A stretch of 51,609 nucleotides of DNA from Flavobacteriales bacterium (GTDB lineage: Bacteria > Bacteroidota > Bacteroidia > CAIKAF01): contig JANWWP010000058.1 in the NCBI GenBank assembly GCA_025055575.1, positions 1-51,609 on the forward strand, read 5' to 3'. The notes under the pieces were generated by a model. That model did no database searches and was not told the DNA's origin. It saw nothing but the letters and a program-made list of their open reading frames with translations. Made by a program: the position numbers and the translations under genes. Positions 639-17,618 of this stretch are shown piece by piece. The stretch's first letter is position 1. The number at the start of each line of letters is the position of its first letter.

Positions 639-3600
639 ATGGGCGTTTCTCCGGACAACCTTAGGAGCCTTTGTGTTCACATTCTAATTTTTGCTTTTTG
701 CAGTGGTTTCTTCTTTCATAGGACATCGGCCCAATCCTATGGAAATGAATGGATTGTTCCGGATCAAGTGTATTTTAAGTGCCCGGTTTTCACGCAGGGG
801 ATTCATAAAATTTCCTACAGCACACTGCAAGGCGCCGGTTTTCCTTTGAATACGGATCCCAGGCAGGTTCAGATGGTGGCCCGTGGTCAGGAAATTCCTG
901 TTTTCATAGCCGGTGAAGCAGATGGTGTGTGGGATCCCGGCGACCATATTCTTTTTTTTGGTGAGCCCAACGACGGTCGGCTTGATACCCTTTTATTCAT
1001 GGATCCTAAGGATCATGCCACCCCGGCGCTCAGCTTGTTTTGTGACACCATCTATTATTTTCTGACGGTATCCGGCAACTTGAGCAACCTGAGATTTATC
1101 CCGGAGACGGACAACAATTTTCAGGCCTACGATGTGGCACCCTTCTACTGGGCTTTGGTTCGGCAGACTTTCAGTTCTGAATACAATCCCGGCCAGGTGC
1201 TGACGCACAATATCTTAAATCCCGCCTATACGGCGGGCGAGGGTTGGGCGGCTATTTTTAACGGAGCACAATTTTACACGCAGGGTTGGTCGGGCGTGTG
1301 GGCTGGCTACCAGAGCACGCTGTTTACGGCCGGTCCCAATGCCGAGTTCCGTATTCACATTGCCGGTGCCAACGATCCCCCAGATGCCGCGCCTTTGGAC
1401 CACCGGTATTTTGTCACTTTTGGCAGTGGCCAAAAAGATACCTCTATTTCTGCTTACGGCTTGGCCAAGATGGTGGTGACTTCTACGGGGGCCGGCTTGG
1501 CTTCCGCCGCCTTTGCCTATCGGGTGCACTTTTCTCCTTTCTATTCCATGAACACGCGCAACGCCTTGCTTCACGCGGAGGCGCGCATGCCCCAGGTGTA
1601 CAACCTTTCCGGTCGCCAAGATCAATATATGGAAATTCCGGACAATCCGGCCCAGTCCAAATACCATCTGAGTATTTCAAACTTTAATACCAATGGTTCG
1701 GTCCCCTGGCTTTTTGACCTGACGGGCCGTCGGATGGTGACGGTATATTCATCGGGCAGCGGGTTCAGTGTTCTATTGCCCAACGGTCCTGCTGGTCTCA
1801 ACCGATGCTTCCTCACTTCAGAGAGCCGTTTTATAGAAGTCACCACGTTGCGGCCTGTTCAGGTGAAGGGCTTTGCCACGGGCCGTTTCAGAAATTTCGC
1901 AGCCGAGTACCGCAATTTCAATTACTTGACCATCACGTCCAAAGCCTTATGGAACGAAGCCGAACAATACACCGACTACCGCCGACTGACGGGCTGGAAG
2001 GCCATCACTCTGGACTTTGAAGAGCTCACCGATCAGTTTGCATGGGGCATTCCGGGGCACCCCCAGGCCGTGCGCAACTTTCTGCGTTTTGCTTTGGATT
2101 CCTGGACCACAAAACCTGAACTGGTGTTTCTGATCGGCAAAGGCTATTCTCCCCCAACGGTGCGCTGGAGTCCGGCCTACTGGGCCATGAATTATGTGCC
2201 GACGCTGGGAAATCCGGCCACGGATAATTTATATGGTTTCAACCTCTACGGCACCAAAAAATTTCATGTGGGCATCGGGCGCTTGACGGCGCGAAATCCC
2301 GGCGAAGTATTAAACTACCTCAAAAAGGTTATGAACAATGAAGCCCAAAAATTTGAGCCCTGGATGAAGAGGGCTCTGCATTTTGCAGGGGGCTTCAGCC
2401 AGCAGGAACAGCAGGCTTTGTTGAATTATTTGAACGGCTACAAAGCCATTTATGAAGACACCCTGATGGGCGGAAGAGTGTACACCTTTTCCAAATCCAG
2501 CAACGCGCCTGTAAGCATCACCCTGGCCGACAGCATCAAAGGCCTTATCAACGGTGGGGTGGCGCTCATGACCTTTTTTGGTCACGCCTCCGGCAGCGGT
2601 TTTGACACCAACATTGACGACCCTGCGGTGTATGAGAATCAGGGAAAATGTCCAGTGGTGCTGGCCAACAGCTGTTTTTCAGGGGATCTTTTTCAGGACT
2701 ATTACACCGTGAGCGAGCGGTTTGTGCACGAGCCCTACAAAGGCGCTGTTGCCTTCATCGCTTCCAGCACAGTGAATTTGACGGCTTTCATCGCTCAATA
2801 TGGTTACGAATTCTACAAAAACATCTGCTGGCGCCGTTATCTAAAGCCTTTAGGGACAGCGGTTTCATTTGCCGGTGAAGCCTTGTATCATCAATCCCCC
2901 AATCCTTTTGGCAGGGCTTTGGCCCTGGAGATGGGCTTACACGGCGACCCCGCGCTCACCACCTATGGACTGCCAAAACCCGACCTGGTCATCACCCCGC
3001 CTTACATCCGCGCCATACCCCAGGTGGTGACCACCGATCAGGATAGTTTTTTACTTCAGGTGGCCGTGTTCAATGCCGGCCGGGCCATGACCGACAGCCT
3101 GGATGTGGAAGTGCGCCGAAAATATGCCAAACCGGGAAAACCGGATGACATTATTCTCAAAAGAATTCCACCGGTGCTCTTCTCCGATACCTTCTTTGTG
3201 AAGCTGCCTACAGATCCTATTCACGGCCCTGGTATTAACTACATCACCGCCACGGCGGACCCGGCCGATGCTGTGGACGAAATGGCCAACAACAACAACA
3301 GCGCCACCATTCCGCTTTTTATCGGGGCTTCAGAAATTTTTCCGGTGTATCCGCCGCGGTTTGCCGTTATTCCCAATAATACCACGTGGCTCAAGGCTTC
3401 CACGGGCGATCCTTTTGCGCCTGTAAAAAAATATAAATTTCAGTTGGACACCACCGACCTTTTTAACACGCCCTTTCTACGGGATACAGTGATCCAGCAA
3501 TCCGGAGGTGTGGTGAAATGGAAGCCGCCCGTTCTGTTCCAGGACAGTACTGTGTACTTCTGGCGGGTGGGCGTGGATTCTGCCAACACAGGGGTTTTTC

Positions 3601-5699
3601 ATAAGTGGCGCGAAAGCTCCTTTGAATACATTCAGGGAAAGTATGGCTGGGGACAATCCCATTTTTATCAGTTTAAAGACAATGACTATCTCTACACGGT
3701 GTACAACCGGCCTTTTCGGCGCTTTGATTTTTCTCCGAATCTGAAACAACTGAAAGTGGTAACCATTGGCCAGCCCGGCGGGTTGGCGGCGCTCAATTAC
3801 TGCAAATACGACCTGGATGGCGTGTTGCAGGAATATGGCACGGGATGCGGCTTTGTACCTCTGCTGGCTGTGGCCGTCATCGACCCCACCACGCTGGAGC
3901 CCTGGGGAAGCCGTTGTAACGGATTGAACCCCAACAATGGATTTGGAAATCTCAACGACAACTGTGCCTGTCGCAACCGGGTGGAAAAACTTTTTTATTT
4001 CAGGCCTGACGTCACACCTTCAAGGGAAGCCCTCAAAGACATGCTGAACAACAGTGTACCCCTGGGCTATTATGTGCTGGTATTTACCTTGAACTCCACC
4101 AATTTTCAATATTTCAGCGGAGCCCAACTGCAGGCCTTTTTAAATCTGGGGGCAGATACCATTGTGCACCTGGCGGCCAATGCCACCAATGTACCCTATA
4201 TCTTTTTTGCTCGTAAGGGTTTTCCCGCCACCGCGCAGGAAGTGGTGGGCAGCGGACCTAATGACATGATCACCCTGACCACGGTGCTTCAAAACGACTG
4301 GAAATTCGGAAGAATCCAATCGCCCCTTATTGGAGCGTCCACGTCCTGGAAGTCCTTCCATTGGCGCACCCGCAGCGTGGAGCAGCCCACACAGGACAGC
4401 ATCAGTATGACCGTTTTTGGCATTTCGGGGGCGGGTAATTCCACGCCTCTGCTCACGATTGTCAATCCGGCCCAGGTGGACATCCCGGATTTATTTAACT
4501 ACGCCAATGCGGCTCAATATCCTTATTTGAGGCTGAGTTTCTTCACGCGCGACGACAGCCTCTACACGCCTTCGCAATTGCGGAGCTGGCGCATCCTTTT
4601 TGACGGGGTGCCGGAGTGCGCCCTCAATCCGGCCCTGGGTTACACCTTCCAGGACGATACTCTGCCCCAGGGCACTACACTCCGGTTGGCCGTGCCGGTT
4701 GAAAACATCGGCGACTATCCGATGGACAGTCTGGCCATGAAATATTTTATTGTGGATCCATCCAACGTATCGCATACCTACCTCAAAACCTTGGGACCTC
4801 TACCTGTGGGAGCTGTGCTCACGGACACTTTTAAGGTGAGCAACATGAGCTATCCGGATTTAAATGTGCTTTGGATGGAAGCCAATCCCTTTGATCATCC
4901 AAAACGGCAGCCTGAGCAGTATCATTTCAACAACATCGCCAGCCGGACTTTTCTCACCCTGAAAGATAAAATAAATCCCTTGCTGGATGTCACTTTTGAC
5001 GGGGTGCGCATCATGAACGGCGACATCGTGTCGGGAAGGCCCGAAATTCATATCTATCTTAAGGATGAAAATAAGCTGCTGTGGCTCAACGATACTTCTC
5101 TTTTTGAAATCTTTCTCAAAAAACCTACCGATAATGCACCTAAAAAACTGAGTTTCTCCCAGCCCGACCTCACTTTTTATCCCGCCACCTCTGCCCAAAA
5201 CCAGGCCCGTGTGGAGTACCGGCCTGACTTCACCGACCTGGATGGTGTATATCGGTTGAGCGTAAGGGCCCGGGACAGAAGTCAGAATGCCAGCGGGATG
5301 GGCAACGGGGATTTCGATTACAACGTGGAATTCCGCGTCGTCAACAAATCCACCATTACAGAGGTTTTGAATTACCCCAACCCTTTTTCCACAAGCACGC
5401 GTTTTGTTTTTACATTAACGGGAAATCGAATTCCCACTTTCATGAAAATTCAAATCCTTACGACCGACGGCCGCATCGTGCGCGAAATTTTTCAGGATGA
5501 GTTGGGGCCCATCCGCATCGGGCGTAACATCACGGAGTTTGCCTGGGATGGCACCGATCAATTTGGTGACAAATTGGCCTCTGGAGTCTATCTGTACCGG
5601 GTGATAACGGAGATGGAGGGAGAACAAATAGAAAAATCTTCCACGGCGGCCGACCGCTTTTTCCGAAAAGGATGGGGCAAAATGTATCTGATGCGTTAA
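639..5699 (+). CDS. porU2: Gingipain-family C25 peptidase, PorU2-like T9SS-associated surface protein
   Basis: A 1686-residue exported protein. Residues 1-32 form a signal peptide (hydrophobic core ILIFAFCSGFFF, cleavage near TSAQS). An N-terminal prodomain-like region contains ILFFGEPNDGR. The C25 cysteine peptidase domain spans about residues 430-760; the catalytic pair is visible as His649 in FFGHASG and Cys679 in ANSCFSGD. A CARDB-like beta domain follows at about 770-870, then long beta-rich regions, and finally a FlgD/T9SS type A-like C-terminal domain from about 1570 (LNYPNPFS to GVYLYRV). PorU proteins are sortases that cleave T9SS C-terminal signals. The length of about 1700 residues and the architecture fit the longer PorU2 type better than PorU itself (about 1100), so substrate and role are inferred. 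The gene converges with lspA and overlaps its end by 4 nt. Confidence 0.82.
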   Translation: MGVSPDNLRSLCVHILIFAFCSGFFFHRTSAQSYGNEWIVPDQVYFKCPVFTQGIHKISYSTLQGAGFPLNTDPRQVQMVARGQEIPVFIAGEADGVWDPGDHILFFGEPNDGRLDTLLFMDPKDHATPALSLFCDTIYYFLTVSGNLSNLRFIPETDNNFQAYDVAPFYWALVRQTFSSEYNPGQVLTHNILNPAYTAGEGWAAIFNGAQFYTQGWSGVWAGYQSTLFTAGPNAEFRIHIAGANDPPDAAPLDHRYFVTFGSGQKDTSISAYGLAKMVVTSTGAGLASAAFAYRVHFSPFYSMNTRNALLHAEARMPQVYNLSGRQDQYMEIPDNPAQSKYHLSISNFNTNGSVPWLFDLTGRRMVTVYSSGSGFSVLLPNGPAGLNRCFLTSESRFIEVTTLRPVQVKGFATGRFRNFAAEYRNFNYLTITSKALWNEAEQYTDYRRLTGWKAITLDFEELTDQFAWGIPGHPQAVRNFLRFALDSWTTKPELVFLIGKGYSPPTVRWSPAYWAMNYVPTLGNPATDNLYGFNLYGTKKFHVGIGRLTARNPGEVLNYLKKVMNNEAQKFEPWMKRALHFAGGFSQQEQQALLNYLNGYKAIYEDTLMGGRVYTFSKSSNAPVSITLADSIKGLINGGVALMTFFGHASGSGFDTNIDDPAVYENQGKCPVVLANSCFSGDLFQDYYTVSERFVHEPYKGAVAFIASSTVNLTAFIAQYGYEFYKNICWRRYLKPLGTAVSFAGEALYHQSPNPFGRALALEMGLHGDPALTTYGLPKPDLVITPPYIRAIPQVVTTDQDSFLLQVAVFNAGRAMTDSLDVEVRRKYAKPGKPDDIILKRIPPVLFSDTFFVKLPTDPIHGPGINYITATADPADAVDEMANNNNSATIPLFIGASEIFPVYPPRFAVIPNNTTWLKASTGDPFAPVKKYKFQLDTTDLFNTPFLRDTVIQQSGGVVKWKPPVLFQDSTVYFWRVGVDSANTGVFHKWRESSFEYIQGKYGWGQSHFYQFKDNDYLYTVYNRPFRRFDFSPNLKQLKVVTIGQPGGLAALNYCKYDLDGVLQEYGTGCGFVPLLAVAVIDPTTLEPWGSRCNGLNPNNGFGNLNDNCACRNRVEKLFYFRPDVTPSREALKDMLNNSVPLGYYVLVFTLNSTNFQYFSGAQLQAFLNLGADTIVHLAANATNVPYIFFARKGFPATAQEVVGSGPNDMITLTTVLQNDWKFGRIQSPLIGASTSWKSFHWRTRSVEQPTQDSISMTVFGISGAGNSTPLLTIVNPAQVDIPDLFNYANAAQYPYLRLSFFTRDDSLYTPSQLRSWRILFDGVPECALNPALGYTFQDDTLPQGTTLRLAVPVENIGDYPMDSLAMKYFIVDPSNVSHTYLKTLGPLPVGAVLTDTFKVSNMSYPDLNVLWMEANPFDHPKRQPEQYHFNNIASRTFLTLKDKINPLLDVTFDGVRIMNGDIVSGRPEIHIYLKDENKLLWLNDTSLFEIFLKKPTDNAPKKLSFSQPDLTFYPATSAQNQARVEYRPDFTDLDGVYRLSVRARDRSQNASGMGNGDFDYNVEFRVVNKSTITEVLNYPNPFSTSTRFVFTLTGNRIPTFMKIQILTTDGRIVREIFQDELGPIRIGRNITEFAWDGTDQFGDKLASGVYLYRVITEMEGEQIEKSSTAADRFFRKGWGKMYLMR

Positions 5700-10593: not shown

Positions 10594-13155
10594 TTAGTTT
10601 CTGAAAGTCTTTGTTCTTAAAAACTTTCTCATAATGTTCTTCTTCTTTTTCCGCATCTTTTTCTCATCTTCTACATAATAACCGCCGCCCGATTCATTCT
10701 CTTTGTAGTACCCGCTCCCTGAGCCATAGCCATACCCATAACCGTATCCATAGCCATAGCCATACCCATAACCGTACCCATATCCATAACCGTACCCATA
10801 ACCATAGCCGTAAGTGTCCTTCCTGGCGTTATAATCATTAAGAAGAATGTACAATTTTTCAATACCCGCATTCCGCATCATTTCGTCCAGATGGGAAATC
10901 ATAGCTAATGGCGTGTAATCCTGACGTGTAACATACAGGTTGATGTCCGTCTTTTTCATGATGGTGAACGCATCCGAAACAAGACCTAAAGGCGCGCAGT
11001 CCACAATCACGTAATCATATCTTTCCCGGGCTGTTTTTAAGAAATTTTCAAAAGCAGGGGTCTCTAATAGTTCGGCCGGGTTGGGAGGAATAGGACCCGA
11101 GACCACCACATCAAAATTTTCGTAACCGGACGGAAACACCACTTCATCAAAAGTCTTTTGGCCGCTGAGATAACTGCTGAGTCCCACGCTGTTGTCCAGG
11201 TTAAAATCCGCGTAGATCCGCGGTTTTCTTAAATCGGCGCCCACCAACAGCACTTTAAGCCCGGAGAGTGAAAAAACGCCGGCAAGATTGATGCTGATGT
11301 ACGTTTTTCCCTCCCCTGAGATGGAGGATGTCGTGGCAATGATAGCTTTTTCTTTGCCTGAAGTGAGAAATTTAAGATTCGCGCGCACAGCCCGGAAGCT
11401 TTCCGAAACCATCGATTTGGGATGGTGGAGCACCGGCAGATTGGTATCGTAATGGTTGTGGGGAAGCAAATTAATGATAGGAAATTTTGTGCGTTGCGTG
11501 ATATCCTGTCTTGAGTTGACCCGGGTGCGGATGGAGGATTTTATGAATAAAAAGAGGGAGGGAATTGTAATGCCAAGCAAAGAGCTAAATAAATAAATAA
11601 AAGTAGCTTTGGGTTTTACAGGGGAAGTGCTCTTGAGCCGGGCTGTTTCAATAATTTTTTTATTGATAACATTCGAGGCCAGAATGAGCTGGGCTTCCGC
11701 CTTTTTTTGTAAAAGGTAATTAAAGACGTTTTCATTCACGGAATACTTGCGTTGAATGTTAATCAACTCTCTCTGATTGTAGGGCAGAGCCGCTACTTTA
11801 CTTTCCAGGTCTGCAAGTTTTGACCTCAAAATCCGGAGATTTTCGTTTTCATTTTTCAGTTTAAATGAAATATTTTGAACGATTTCATCTCTCAGGCTGG
11901 TGAAACGAAGACGATACCTTTCAATCAAATTATTGTCTTTTGTAAATTCGATTTTAGATTTAAGTTCGTTTTGGGCTACTACAAATTCGCTAAGCAGTTT
12001 GTTGAGATAAGGATCATTATTAAAGCTCAGGGAAGGGGTCACATAGCCGCTGGTATTTTTTTCGTCGGATAAATAATTTTTTAGGTCTTCCAGTTCCTTA
12101 ATGGCCATTTGGGTCTGCATGATCCGGGCATCCTGCTCCTTAATGGTATTGAGAAGCTGGCCGGCCTGGAAATTCAGATCAAATATTTTTTTCTGACTCT
12201 TAAAATTTTCTAATTTATTTTCAAAAGCATACAAAGAATCGCTCACAAAGCTGAGCTGATTATCAATAAATTTTATGGTGTTTAAAACCGACTGATTTTT
12301 TTCTTTTAGGGATTCCCGCAGATAAGCCGTGGTGAGGGAATCCAGAAAAGCCAAATCTTTTTTTACGCTGGGTGTTCTTAGCTTGATTTGAATGATGGAG
12401 GATTCTTTGAGGGTGGGTGAGGCGTTGATTTTTGACAAGTAAGCCGTGGTGGCGGCTTCAGGATCTTGAAGAACAAAAGAAAAAGAGCGGCCTCTTATGA
12501 TTTCATTGCCGTTGTTTTTTGAAGGCCGCAGCATCAGCCTGAATTTAAAATGGGGTGTTTCCACCAAATCTCCGAACAAAAACTTACCTTTATAAGCCAG
12601 CGAAAAAGGCTTTTCATCTAGAGGCATTCCGGAACTGAAATCAAACAAACGTCCTTTTTTTGAATCCGTACTGAGCTCGTAATAATTGCTGTCGATGACT
12701 TCAATTTTAAATTCGGCACCCGCAACCTGCGGATGGTTAAGGTCCAGCACCAACTCAAAAGGCACTTCCTCGCGGGCAATTTCGCTTTTCTTGATGCGGC
12801 CATACGATTGAAACTTTATATAAAACTGATTTTCCAAAATCACCTTTCTTACAAAATTGTAACTGGTGATGCGGGCGATTTCATTGTTCAGGCTTTTGTT
12901 GGTCCCGCTGATCTGAAAAGTTTCAAAAACGGCGCTTTCCAGAATATCGGACCCCTTGCTTTTGTCTTCAATTAATATTTGGCTCGAAATATCATAATAA
13001 TAAATAGAATACCTTAAATATAAATGAGCTAAAATGAGGGCCAAGAGGATACAAATGGCGTAAAGAAATTTATTTTTTACTACGATTCCTAGGGTTCTAA
13101 GGAGAAACGCAAGCCCTTGGTTATCCTTTAAATTCTCAGTTTTGTTTTCTGACAT
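10594..13155 (-). CDS. Wzc-like polysaccharide co-polymerase / tyrosine autokinase
   Basis: An 853-residue inner-membrane protein combining a Wzz chain-length domain with a BY-kinase domain. The first membrane helix is at about residues 29-50 (FLYAICILLALILAHLYL). A long periplasmic coiled coil covers about 290-500, and the second helix lies near 515-535 (FIYLFSSLLGITIPSLFLF). The cytoplasmic kinase has Walker A in SISGEGKT (Lys617), Walker A' in LLVGADLRKP and Walker B in YVIVDCAPLG. The C-terminal tyrosine cluster, where such kinases autophosphorylate, is here an extraordinary run of 15 Tyr-Gly dipeptides at residues 782-811, followed by GYY motifs and a lysine-rich end. Partner: the Wza-like lipoprotein encoded 26 nt upstream. 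No polymerase or flippase gene is in the window. Confidence 0.93.
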   Translation of the reverse strand: MSENKTENLKDNQGLAFLLRTLGIVVKNKFLYAICILLALILAHLYLRYSIYYYDISSQILIEDKSKGSDILESAVFETFQISGTNKSLNNEIARITSYNFVRKVILENQFYIKFQSYGRIKKSEIAREEVPFELVLDLNHPQVAGAEFKIEVIDSNYYELSTDSKKGRLFDFSSGMPLDEKPFSLAYKGKFLFGDLVETPHFKFRLMLRPSKNNGNEIIRGRSFSFVLQDPEAATTAYLSKINASPTLKESSIIQIKLRTPSVKKDLAFLDSLTTAYLRESLKEKNQSVLNTIKFIDNQLSFVSDSLYAFENKLENFKSQKKIFDLNFQAGQLLNTIKEQDARIMQTQMAIKELEDLKNYLSDEKNTSGYVTPSLSFNNDPYLNKLLSEFVVAQNELKSKIEFTKDNNLIERYRLRFTSLRDEIVQNISFKLKNENENLRILRSKLADLESKVAALPYNQRELINIQRKYSVNENVFNYLLQKKAEAQLILASNVINKKIIETARLKSTSPVKPKATFIYLFSSLLGITIPSLFLFIKSSIRTRVNSRQDITQRTKFPIINLLPHNHYDTNLPVLHHPKSMVSESFRAVRANLKFLTSGKEKAIIATTSSISGEGKTYISINLAGVFSLSGLKVLLVGADLRKPRIYADFNLDNSVGLSSYLSGQKTFDEVVFPSGYENFDVVVSGPIPPNPAELLETPAFENFLKTARERYDYVIVDCAPLGLVSDAFTIMKKTDINLYVTRQDYTPLAMISHLDEMMRNAGIEKLYILLNDYNARKDTYGYGYGYGYGYGYGYGYGYGYGYGYGYGYGSGSGYYKENESGGGYYVEDEKKMRKKKKNIMRKFLRTKTFRN
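10723..10812 (-). repeat. Hexanucleotide repeat coding for (Tyr-Gly)15
   Basis: Fifteen 6-bp units encode alternating Tyr and Gly in the kinase tail. All four Gly codons and both Tyr codons occur, so wobble bases have diverged while the peptide stayed fixed. A 30-bp block (10723-10752) recurs at 10753-10782 with one base changed, showing expansion by tandem duplication. Confidence 0.95.
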
Positions 13156-13181: not shown

Positions 13182-13997
13182 TTACCGATTCCTGTAAATA
13201 ATTAAAGCTGTAATATTAACTACTGTAGCTAACACCGATATGACGGATAAAATGGGAGTGATTTGCCGAAATGTGGTGTTGATAGGCTTAGATTTAAGTT
13301 GTTCCACATAGATGACGTCATGCGGCCACACCACTGTATGGTCTGCCGAGAGAACGTCTTCGCGTGTGAGGTCAATTTTTATAACCCGGTTTTCGTGGCC
13401 TATGCGCCGTATGATTTTAATGCGCTGGGCGTTGGCATACTCTGAGGTGCCCCCTGCCTGGGCCAGGGCATCCAGCAAGGATACTTTTTCATTGAAAATA
13501 AAGTGCAGCCCCGGATTGTTCACCTCTCCCAAAACGGAAACTTTAAAACTTACAAATTTTACGTTGACCTCAGCATAAGGAAATTTTTCCTTAACTTTTT
13601 GTTTTATAATATTCTGGGCTTCTTCGACCGAAAAGCCTCCCACTTTTATTTTTCCAATGTTAAAGACGTCGATGGTGCTGTCCTGATTCACTCTGTAACC
13701 CCGCGCATAGAAACCACTGGGTGTGTTGAAATAATTGTTATTTGCTCTTTCCACATCCAACAGCTGTTTTATGTTTTCGTCTTTTTCATTGAACGTGAGG
13801 TCCAGAATGTCCTGAGGTTGAATTTTATATTCTTTCAGAAAATACGAATAAGAAGCCTCTTTTTTTAGTAATTGATCATCTGGCTCTCTCAAGAGAACGG
13901 TGCGCTTGAATGGAACACAAGCCCAAAAAGTACAAAGGATGGTCAGCGGGAGAAAAACATTCAGAAATGTCCTGATGTGCTCTTTAAAATTAATCAT
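13182..13997 (-). CDS. Wza-like polysaccharide export lipoprotein
   Basis: A 271-residue outer-membrane export protein of the Wza/BexD family. The N-terminus is a lipoprotein signal peptide with lipobox TFWAC (Cys27). The Poly_export domain begins near residue 55 (YKIQPQDILDLTF), and an SLBB domain follows (VSVLGEVNNPGLHFIF). A hydrophobic C-terminal helix (PILSVISVLATVVNITALIIY) precedes YRNR. These proteins form the outer-membrane channel for capsule or exopolysaccharide and dock on the Wzc-like kinase, which is encoded next. The ATG at 13997 overlaps the maf stop by 4 nt, so translation is coupled. The protein is shorter than E. coli Wza, which is usual for Bacteroidota versions. Confidence 0.92.
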   Translation of the reverse strand: MINFKEHIRTFLNVFLPLTILCTFWACVPFKRTVLLREPDDQLLKKEASYSYFLKEYKIQPQDILDLTFNEKDENIKQLLDVERANNNYFNTPSGFYARGYRVNQDSTIDVFNIGKIKVGGFSVEEAQNIIKQKVKEKFPYAEVNVKFVSFKVSVLGEVNNPGLHFIFNEKVSLLDALAQAGGTSEYANAQRIKIIRRIGHENRVIKIDLTREDVLSADHTVVWPHDVIYVEQLKSKPINTTFRQITPILSVISVLATVVNITALIIYRNR

Positions 13998-14596
13998 TTT
14001 GTAATAGACAAAGAGGATTTGAATAGTTGCCCAAGTTCAAAAAAAATACGGCTTACAGGCAGCCCCATCACGTTGTAAAAGCAGCCCTGAATGGCTTGGA
14101 TACCCAAAATTCCGAAAGCGTCTTGTGCACCGTAGGAACCGGCTTTGTCAAGCCCTTGTCCGGATTGGGCATAGGCTCGGAGAAAAGCTTCGGGCAGCTG
14201 GCGGAATGTGACTTCTGTCGTTTCCACAAAGGCCATTTCCCCGGCATCTGTGAGCACGCAGACTCCCGTCATGACTTGATGGGTGCGGCCGTTGAGACGC
14301 TGCAACATATGAAAAGCATCTTCCGCGTCGTGGGGTTTGTTGAGCACTTCATTGTCCAGCACCACGGTGGTATCTGCGGTCACCAATACAGAGCCGGAGG
14401 GTCTTTTTGAGCGAAACCACTCGGCCTTTTTGCGCGCAGCCATTAGGCCCCAGGAGGCCGCCGGGGTGTCTTCCGGCAGGTTTTCGTCCGGTGCCCCCTG
14501 CCAAACTTCGGGCCGCACGCCGGCCATTTCCAGCAGAAGCCTCCGACGGGGGGACGCCGAGGCCAAAATCCAACGCAGGGCCATTAGTTCCAGCAT
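13994..14596 (-). CDS. maf: Maf-family nucleotide pyrophosphatase
   Basis: A cytoplasmic house-cleaning enzyme that hydrolyses non-canonical or dTTP/UTP nucleotides to monophosphates. It has the Maf signature LASASPRRRLLL near the N-terminus, the catalytic region VTADTTVVLDNEVLNKP, the LNGRTHQVMTGV segment, and SGQGLDKAGSYGAQ, which matches the dTTP/UTP-type (YhdE-like) subgroup. The length of about 200 residues is normal. The true start may be the second Met (MALRWILASASPRR), four codons in. The gene overlaps the end of the prenyltransferase gene by 13 nt and the start of the export lipoprotein by 4 nt, so it lies inside an operon with no obvious functional link. Confidence 0.93.
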   Translation of the reverse strand: MLELMALRWILASASPRRRLLLEMAGVRPEVWQGAPDENLPEDTPAASWGLMAARKKAEWFRSKRPSGSVLVTADTTVVLDNEVLNKPHDAEDAFHMLQRLNGRTHQVMTGVCVLTDAGEMAFVETTEVTFRQLPEAFLRAYAQSGQGLDKAGSYGAQDAFGILGIQAIQGCFYNVMGLPVSRIFFELGQLFKSSLSITK

Positions 14597-15491: not shown

Positions 15492-17618
15492 TTGGCCCGA
15501 GTGACTCTTTCTGCCAGCTTTTGGTGCCTTGTGCATGCGATTTTTCCATCGCTGGCCGTCTCACAGTCTCTGGCGTCGTGTCCAATCCTGACACTACCCG
15601 TTCCCTCCCTTCCGGATGACACATTGAGAGGTTGGGAAAAGTGGGAACAATTCGGTGTGGAACTTCCCGTAAGGCAAGTGCTTCAGGGAGGCAAAGCCCC
15701 ATGTTTTGGCTTCGCAGCCCCTGGGGCGGTGAGTCTGAGTCTTAACTTTGGTCCGGGCTCCTGGACTCGCAACGGGCGGGTGGTGGTGCGCAACAGCCGG
15801 TGGGAGGTCCACCAGGTTCTGCCTGCGGCCTTGTGGCATCGAAGGGACATTTGGCCGGCCACCCTGCCGTGCTATGGGGATACCTTGTATGTGGCTTTAG
15901 AAGGCAGCGACAGCGCCTGGGTGGAGGTAAATTCCGTGGTCTTCGGTTACAGAGATTGGCAGAGCACGCCTCGAGGTTTTGGAGACAGCGGCCCATGCAA
16001 TCAGGATGTAAATTGTGGTTTTCCGGCTTGGACCAACGAAAAACGCAGTGTGGTGCTGATGCTCACAGCGGGCAACACACGCAAATGTAGCGGCGCCCTG
16101 ATCAATAACACGGCCCAGGATGGCCGGCCTTTGCTCCTCACGGCCCGCCATTGCAATGTTCAAAGCAACAATATTTATTTATTTAACTATGAGAGCCCAG
16201 GATGTGAAGATGTGGATGGTCCTCTGCATCAATTTATTCAGGGGGGAACCATATTGGCGCAGTGGGCGCCCTCAGATTTTACATTGGTAGAACTCTCGGA
16301 GCCCCCGCCGGCCGATTTTTATCCCTTTTATGCCGGCTGGAACCGCACTCTTGTGCTTCCGGACTCCGGTGTGACGGGCATTCATCATCCGCGGGGAGAT
16401 GTTAAAAAAATCAGTCAGGACTTACAAAGTCCTTTGCCGGCCCCTTATTTGGGCGTTTCCGACACCACGCGCAACCATTGGCATGTAGCGGCTTGGGATT
16501 CGGGCACCACCGAACCGGTGTCTTCCGGATCGCCTCTGTTCGATGCCCAACATCACATCATTGGTCAATTGCATGGTGGCCAGGCCTCTTGTAATTTCAA
16601 TTTTAATGATTTCTATGGAATGCTGTATCACTCCTGGACAGGCGGGGGCACCCCAGCCACCTCACTGCAACCCTGGCTGGATCCTTTGGGCACTGCCCCC
16701 GGCCAATGGAATGGCCTGGACCCCTACCAGCCTGTCTGGAACAAAGACATCGGCTTCCTGAGTCCCAGTGTCGATTTGGAGGTGTGTGAAAATGACCCTG
16801 CGGTGATGATTCAGCTGCGCAATTTTGGATTCGATACAGTGCCCGGTCTGCGTCTTTGGCGGGTGCACCCCAGCGGTTTGGAATTGCTTTTGGATACCAT
16901 CCTTCAGCTGCCTTACAGTCAGATTTTTGCAACTGCGGTGCCCGTGGGGCCTTTGGAGCCTGGAGAATTGAGGAAGGAAATCTGGATAGCCCAAATGGTT
17001 CCTCAGGGAGATGAAAATCCCCTGAACGATTCACTGCAATTGAGCATTCGGCGGTTGAACGGCGAAAAAATCAAAATAAATATTTTTTCGGATGCCTATC
17101 CTTCGGAAACCGGCGCATTTGTTTTGAGCAGGCAGGGCGACACGCTTTGGAAAGCCCCGCCTTTGGCTTCTCAGACTCTGAATTCCTGGACACTGTGTCT
17201 TCCTTTTGATTGTTACGAGCTGCGCGTCACAGACAGCGGAGGAGATGGTTTGTGCTGTCAATATGGCGCTGGTTTTGTGGAAGTCGAGGACGCCCGGGGC
17301 CGGATTATGGGACGCCTGGACCAGTTTCAGAACGTAGGGGCCGTTCCATTCTGTATTCCTTTTGCGGAGGAATCCACGCGGCCTCTGACCCTCTTTCCGG
17401 TGCCTGCGCGGGATGTTGTTATGGTGCTGGTGCAGCCCGATGGGTCGGGAAATCCTTTTCGATGGCGCATCGTTTCTTCAGAAGGCCGGGTAGTGGCCGA
17501 AGGTGTGTGGGATAAATATTTCCATACATTTGACATTTCGGGTCTTGCCTCGGGGGTTTATTTGTTCACAATCTGGGATGAAGAAAAGCGTTTCTGCAAA
17601 AAATTTGTAAAGCTGTAA
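15492..17618 (+). CDS. Secreted trypsin-like serine protease with T9SS sorting domain
   Basis: A 708-residue exported protease resembling lysyl endopeptidase-type S1 enzymes. A signal peptide ends near AVSQS. The triad is visible as His220 in LTARHCN, Asp262 in APSDFTLVEL and Ser347 in SSGSPLFD, followed by IIGQLHGG. Cysteine-rich flanks suggest disulfides. After the catalytic domain come beta domains, including a region with DSGGDGLCC, and a C-terminal T9SS type A sorting domain (FPVPARDVVMV to ASGVYLFTI). The protein should cross the outer membrane through T9SS. The start is ambiguous: TTG at 15492 supplies an Arg to the signal peptide but sits almost at the predicted transcript start; GTG at 15501 leaves a short leader. 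First gene of a plus-strand operon. Confidence 0.88.
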   Translation: MARVTLSASFWCLVHAIFPSLAVSQSLASCPILTLPVPSLPDDTLRGWEKWEQFGVELPVRQVLQGGKAPCFGFAAPGAVSLSLNFGPGSWTRNGRVVVRNSRWEVHQVLPAALWHRRDIWPATLPCYGDTLYVALEGSDSAWVEVNSVVFGYRDWQSTPRGFGDSGPCNQDVNCGFPAWTNEKRSVVLMLTAGNTRKCSGALINNTAQDGRPLLLTARHCNVQSNNIYLFNYESPGCEDVDGPLHQFIQGGTILAQWAPSDFTLVELSEPPPADFYPFYAGWNRTLVLPDSGVTGIHHPRGDVKKISQDLQSPLPAPYLGVSDTTRNHWHVAAWDSGTTEPVSSGSPLFDAQHHIIGQLHGGQASCNFNFNDFYGMLYHSWTGGGTPATSLQPWLDPLGTAPGQWNGLDPYQPVWNKDIGFLSPSVDLEVCENDPAVMIQLRNFGFDTVPGLRLWRVHPSGLELLLDTILQLPYSQIFATAVPVGPLEPGELRKEIWIAQMVPQGDENPLNDSLQLSIRRLNGEKIKINIFSDAYPSETGAFVLSRQGDTLWKAPPLASQTLNSWTLCLPFDCYELRVTDSGGDGLCCQYGAGFVEVEDARGRIMGRLDQFQNVGAVPFCIPFAEESTRPLTLFPVPARDVVMVLVQPDGSGNPFRWRIVSSEGRVVAEGVWDKYFHTFDISGLASGVYLFTIWDEEKRFCKKFVKL

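Follow-up and report, generated by a model that had tools for sequence, protein, structure and literature searches.

The window analyzed here, a 51,609-nucleotide stretch of contig JANWWP010000058.1 from a Flavobacteriales bacterium (assembly GCA_025055575.1), codes on its reverse strand for a Wzc-like tyrosine kinase of the PCP-2a type, which carries fifteen consecutive Tyr-Gly dipeptides near its C-terminus, and for a Wza-like polysaccharide export protein directly upstream (Table 1). The identification of the kinase as Wzc-like, made in an earlier note on this DNA, holds: it scores 154.2 bits against the NCBIfam model for polysaccharide biosynthesis tyrosine autokinases (TIGR01007; cutoff 108.05), its nearest solved structure by sequence is E. 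coli Wzc (PDB 7nhr, E=3.6e-45), and a fold search with its AlphaFold2 model recovered E. coli Wzc at rank 1, the top matches being full-length Wzc proteins. This model, built from 42 sequences (mean pLDDT 80.4, pTM 0.54), describes the fold of the kinase and is unable to show ring or tail contacts. Among Pfam profiles, GNVR (43.1, cutoff 27.7) and AAA_31 lie above their cutoffs and Wzz (23.0) falls just below its cutoff of 25.5; the Wzz-type N-terminal part, the GNVR region and the two predicted membrane helices expected of PCP-2a (Wzc) proteins are all present. The kinase and its upstream neighbor constitute a Wza-Wzc pair. The start of the Wza-like gene overlaps a gene for a Maf-like protein by four bases, which suggests that the export pair may be co-transcribed with the latter. 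Elsewhere in the genome we found two homologs of low-molecular-weight tyrosine phosphatases (LMW-PTP), and a search of the genome for a phosphatase of the CpsB/CapC type returned none. On its forward strand the window also codes for a 1686-aa protein with a gingipain-type Peptidase_C25 domain (639-5699) and for a 708-aa ORF (15492-17618) in which a type IX secretion sorting tail and a weak trypsin-like domain were recognized.

Table 1. Coordinates of the export genes and of the features of the kinase in the window
Feature	Position	Strand	Residues	Basis or remark
Maf-like protein gene	13994-14596	-		overlaps start of Wza-like gene
Wza-like polysaccharide export protein, 271 aa	13182..13997	-		directly upstream of kinase; Pfam Poly_export, SLBB_2, SLBB over cutoffs
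Wzc-like BY-kinase (PCP-2a type), 853 aa	10594..13155	-		NCBIfam, Pfam, PDB, fold
First predicted membrane helix	13009..13071	-	29-49	hydrophobic helix, AF2 model
Second predicted membrane helix	11533..11607	-	517-541	hydrophobic helix, AF2 model
EX2RX2R ring-interface motif	11383..11403	-	E585-R588-R591	invariant in nine-row alignment
Walker A, SSISGEGKT	11302..11328	-	610-618	G614, E615, G616, K617 invariant in nine-row alignment
Walker A', VLLVGADLRKP region	11221..11253	-	635-645	first Asp of DxD is Gly639
Walker B	10999..11013	-	715-719	alignment
(Tyr-Gly)15 run	10723..10812	-	782-811	translation; predicted disordered, pLDDT below 50
Two adjacent 30-bp blocks, five YG units each	10753-10782 and 10723-10752	-		29/30 identical; sequence, TRF
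Basic C-terminal helix	10606..10671	-	829-850	after acidic GYYVEDE; AF2, modest confidence; strongly basic end

The kinase domain retains both the Walker A (SGEGKT) and the Walker B (YDYVIVD) motifs, along with the EX2RX2R motif described for the ring interface of these enzymes (PMC3795738), and Lys617, Asp641, Arg643 and Asp719 are invariant across a nine-row alignment. The Walker A' motif of BY-kinases has been defined as four hydrophobic residues followed by DxDxR (PMC8517177). In this strict form it is absent from the kinase, which reads LLVGADLR, that is, a GxDxR with the second Asp and the Arg retained; because of this departure we classify the protein as a Bacteroidota variant related to the BY-kinases, and not as a canonical member. 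The substitution is frequent: among 115 related kinases the position of the first Asp is occupied by Gly in 73, Asp in 28 and Glu in 10. Across Bacteroidota Wzc-like kinases this residue is mostly Gly, with Glu or Asn in others. Judging from the sequence, catalysis in the Gly-type Bacteroidota kinases may depart from the proteobacterial model.

The C-terminal tyrosine cluster of the kinase comprises 20 Tyr within the final 79 residues. As the earlier note had read it, the run is an exact (YG)15 that uses both Tyr codons (TAT, TAC) and all four Gly codons (GGT, GGC, GGA, GGG), and it is the sole match to the searched YG pattern in the 2.44-Mb genome. With a letter for each kind of hexamer unit, its coding order is a b c d e, c d c f f, e d c f f. 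The 30-bp internal duplication described in the same note is real, the last two blocks differing at one base (TRF period 30, 92% matches; periods of 6, 18 and 30 were reported for the array). A specific test for an adjacent 30-bp match of this quality gives P=0.003, and a general one that covers all shifts gives P=0.12; as its significance varies with the test, we dropped the duplication as sole evidence. A second kinase of the same genome (L032, G000:C31:65615-67990) has an interrupted YG tail with a longest run of 5, and its sister-species counterpart (L050, G001:C48) has a longest run of 12; repeat number hence differs within the genus of the window. In most relatives the YG run is followed by a short acidic stretch, often GYYEED, and then by a basic end, with a mean charge of +4.4 and a charge of at least +3 in 88% of 49 tails. 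The helical moment of these ends exceeds that of their own shuffles (mean z 0.95, s.e. 0.17), so that a basic, mildly amphipathic end after the tyrosine tail is a feature of most relatives. It is our guess that this helix might contact the membrane or phosphates and hold the tail end there.

The earlier note proposed a search of kinases of this family for YG repeats, and most of the 115 Bacteroidota kinases that we collected do carry YG tails. A homolog of the kinase occurs in 40 of the 40 genomes searched, and nearly all of the fetched kinases have YG runs in their tails. In a phylum-wide draw, runs of at least (YG)5 were found in 35/73 genomes of the same class versus 15/223 genomes of other classes, the reversed pattern, used as a control, matching in three genomes only; most of the inspected runs are C-terminal in BY-kinases. 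The longest pure runs of the 115 kinases span 1 to 15 units and are mostly 5-10, the kinase of the window holding the maximum and two others standing at 14. The tail is therefore not exceptional in kind: YG tails are the norm in the class, which rules out a feature unique to this genome, and (YG)15 is just the longest pure run of the 115. Class-wide kinases (L003, L005, L009, L019 and L041, and those of genera g27 and g34) share the domain order, the YG ladder, the acidic stretch and the basic end with the kinase of the window, but their pure runs are mostly of 2-14 units. Near-pure hexanucleotide YG arrays also exist, in L018 (G039), whose gene match contains an in-frame stop, and at G138:C22:4085-4143, so that perfect tandem forms are part of the natural range. 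The same-genus ortholog in G001 comprises the N-terminal part only, at a contig end, and as it lacks the tail the comparison had to do without a near relative of this gene itself; its place was taken by the second kinase and by two other genera. A literature search returned no paper on YG or YxY repeats of Bacteroidota kinases, its one match to 'YG repeat' concerning glucosyltransferases, and in the library searched we found neither a gap-free ladder series nor codon alternation described.

In genus g27, 59 of 59 orthologs end in a pure (YG)n, with zero interrupting residues in 882 run codons. The codons themselves are diverse inside the run (about 0.5 for Tyr and 0.7 for Gly) and less so at invariant positions of the kinase domain (0.31 and 0.62, respectively). 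The claim of the earlier note that the peptide is kept by selection is thereby strengthened: the peptide is under strong selection while its codons drift. As for length, six g27 species have 6 units, 24 have 7, 25 have 8, three have 9 and one has 10. That note also suggested that the number of units may be tunable, and in the corresponding explanation it would shift fast within species, in the manner of a contingency locus, and thereby set polymer length. Comparing species, with one genome for each, we found whole-unit differences in keeping with part of this proposal: the number changes at least 22 times on the 59-species tree, about 40-50% of near pairs already differ, and tail codons turn over somewhat faster than Gly and Tyr codons elsewhere (149/312 vs 184/592). 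Free tunability of the array is nevertheless not supported. Squared differences in unit number climb fast and then plateau, and the variance is 0.66 against 2.9 for a symmetric unbounded walk, with 0 of 2000 simulations as low, an effect whose size is rough since the walk was calibrated on the 11 nearest pairs, which are few. Further, the range is held at 6-10, four g5 species from the window's own family have tails of nearly equal length, and the codon alternation presented below should lower slippage. Because the number changes often yet stays bounded, we conclude that the repeat is not a free-running contingency repeat, and regard a hypervariable tail as unlikely. Within g27, the tails of two pairs of near-identical species (L148/L151 and L154/L156) look rephased by unit gain and loss, one of these pairs having an equal total unit number all the same. 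Runs in genus g34 are shorter, at 2-8 units, falling as low as 2-4 and to none in one species, and interruptions occur at times; hence, a long ladder is not essential everywhere.

The best-characterized counterpart is E. coli K30 Wzc (PDB 7NHR; PMC8285477, PMC11986026), which like the kinase of the window is described with two membrane helices, a periplasmic part, a C-terminal P-loop kinase domain, a Tyr-rich YxY tail and the partner Wza. Successive cryo-EM states of K30 Wzc are reported to show a subunit's tail docked in the active site of the adjacent subunit, with the Tyr two residues before the target occupying a tyrosine pocket; phosphorylation proceeds in the C-to-N direction, and the fourth phosphate coincides with loss of the ring (PMC11986026). 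N711 is the sole gap in its YxY pattern and leaves its tail disordered; the N711Y substitution, which completes the pattern, orders the tail and rescued the function of a mutant (PMC11986026). The K30 tail (YYRYGHNHYGYSYY) has a longest YxY chain of 3, whereas the kinase of the window has 15 Tyr in one register, the maximum in the 115 kinases being 16. K30 Wzc has DxD in Walker A' where the present kinase has GxD, and in the parts of the K30 Wzc papers drawn on here no counterpart of the basic C-terminal helix is described. Among Bacteroidota, six Tyr within 16 residues of the P. gingivalis BY-kinase Ptk1 are reported to be autophosphorylated (PMC8863745). This enzyme is alike in its Tyr-rich cluster and in the presence of an LMW-PTP phosphatase in the species (PMC4082711, PMC8863745), a likeness drawn from published description and not from sequence, and its phosphorylated region is shorter than (YG)15. 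S. aureus CapAB (PDB 3BFV, 2VED) shares the kinase fold (TM-score of about 0.9 across the kinase domain) and inserts a Tyr cluster into the neighboring subunit but, unlike the kinase of the window, consists of two separate polypeptides with a short Tyr cluster.

By analogy to these systems, we posit that the tail is probably the C-terminal autophosphorylation cluster of a Wzc/BY-kinase, in the form of a YxY ladder without breaks. Since the YG run is a gap-free YxY, each step has the next Tyr at the right distance. If the homology with Wzc of E. coli and Ptk1 of P. gingivalis is a guide, the tail would feed the active site of the neighboring subunit as a long phosphorylation ladder, with one Tyr undergoing phosphorylation and the Tyr at i-2 held in a second site, and would advance by one YG step per round from the C end towards the N end. 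Rising phosphorylation would loosen the ring and a phosphatase, perhaps one of the LMW-PTP homologs, would reset it, so that the polymer would be made, and exported through the neighboring Wza-like protein, in cycles. With fifteen units the tail would have 14-15 equivalent steps in one register, as against about four phosphorylations in E. coli. Substitutions within the tails affect Gly about twice as frequently as Tyr (48/833 YxY vs 22/746 GzG), as is expected if the spacing of Tyr matters most, although the bias is a modest one and the counts lack phylogenetic independence; YAY and YSY in genus g5 keep the Tyr where Gly is lost. Of the residues that line the E. coli pocket (A534-P536, P645-L647, E675 and S679), only P645 was matched (P722) in the alignment with PDB 7nhr, P536, L647, E675 and S679 corresponding to Ser613, Gly724, Met752 and Leu756. 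The pocket would hence have to be different, and the tail may work like the E. coli ratchet without being the same, possibly with another pocket. R778 aligns with Wzc K701, the basic half of the K701-D28 pair, which is the half that was mapped.

Two other explanations of the tail were weighed. In the first, it would mainly be a sticky, disordered Tyr-Gly segment by which kinases or other proteins are brought together, phosphorylation being of lesser importance. Its Tyr-rich low-complexity sequence, the disorder in the model and the basic end after the acidic stretch would all suit such a role; yet the segment belongs to a kinase family whose phosphorylation targets are just such segments, and neither strict alternation nor bounded length is obviously needed for stickiness, making this rather improbable in our view. 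In the second, the kinase would be weak or inactive owing to the Walker A' Gly639, a replacement found likewise in 73 of the 115 relatives, and the tail would be a structural plug holding the ring. We hold this to be distinctly improbable, given the invariance of Lys617, Asp641, Arg643 and Asp719 and the long YG tails kept by Gly-type and Asp-type kinases alike. An active kinase with phosphorylation of the tail is the likely reading.

The coding of the tails was compared in a combined set of 168 tails from three data sets, with overlapping members removed, with the codons shuffled tail by tail as the reference. Of 1000 pairs of adjacent YG units, 112 (11.2%) are identical, where 183 (18.3%) are expected (z -7.0), while units two and three apart are more alike (z +4.6 and +4.0) and those four to six apart show nothing. 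For the set of 61 kinases obtained by clustering at 75% identity, the share of identical neighbors is 16.0%, versus 22.3% in shuffles (z -3.8), and units two and three apart are identical more often (z 3.2 and 3.7); outside the tails of these 61 proteins, consecutive Gly or Tyr codons have no such effect (z 0.4 and -0.9). The g27 (6.5% vs 13.7%, z -4.5) and g34 (9.7% vs 17.0%, z -3.5) sets agree, their z values being upper limits because congeneric species are not independent, though tail codons turn over fast. The window's own array is neutral in this respect, with 2 identical neighbors against 2.1 expected. A plain hexanucleotide microsatellite that arose by slippage, its peptide unselected, would account for the whole-unit changes between species and for the few near-pure hexamer tails (L018, G138), but we reject it as highly improbable in view of the 59/59 pure peptides with highly diverse synonymous codons, the bounded length and the avoidance of identity between neighbors.

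Since single-unit slippage would generate identical neighbors, the pattern indicates that single-unit copies are rare or removed and that copying involves blocks of two or three units. The arrays have the look of scrambled codons propagated in blocks of 12-18 bp, with either selection or a mutational preference for larger blocks as the cause of neighbor avoidance, which works against slippage. Bacteria normally read both Tyr codons with one tRNA, and the alternation of TAT and TAC consequently points to a cause at the DNA level. Tentatively, we propose that the YG ladder might be a genetically protected counter, whose length would set the number of phosphorylations before the ring collapses, with selection keeping neighbors different at the DNA level against slippage and rare 12-18-bp block copies resetting the count.

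The E. coli ratchet has been described for a tail that holds about five tyrosines and has a single gap in its pattern (PMC11986026). The Bacteroidota offer a natural series of gap-free ladders, with 2 to 15 steps, on one type of kinase, which opens to direct test the question of whether step number sets polymer length or yield. Codon alternation, as three separate data sets show it, would be nature's version of the scrambling that protein engineers use deliberately to stabilize repetitive genes. Thus, our findings furnish a class-wide series of ladder lengths together with a coding pattern that should resist slippage.
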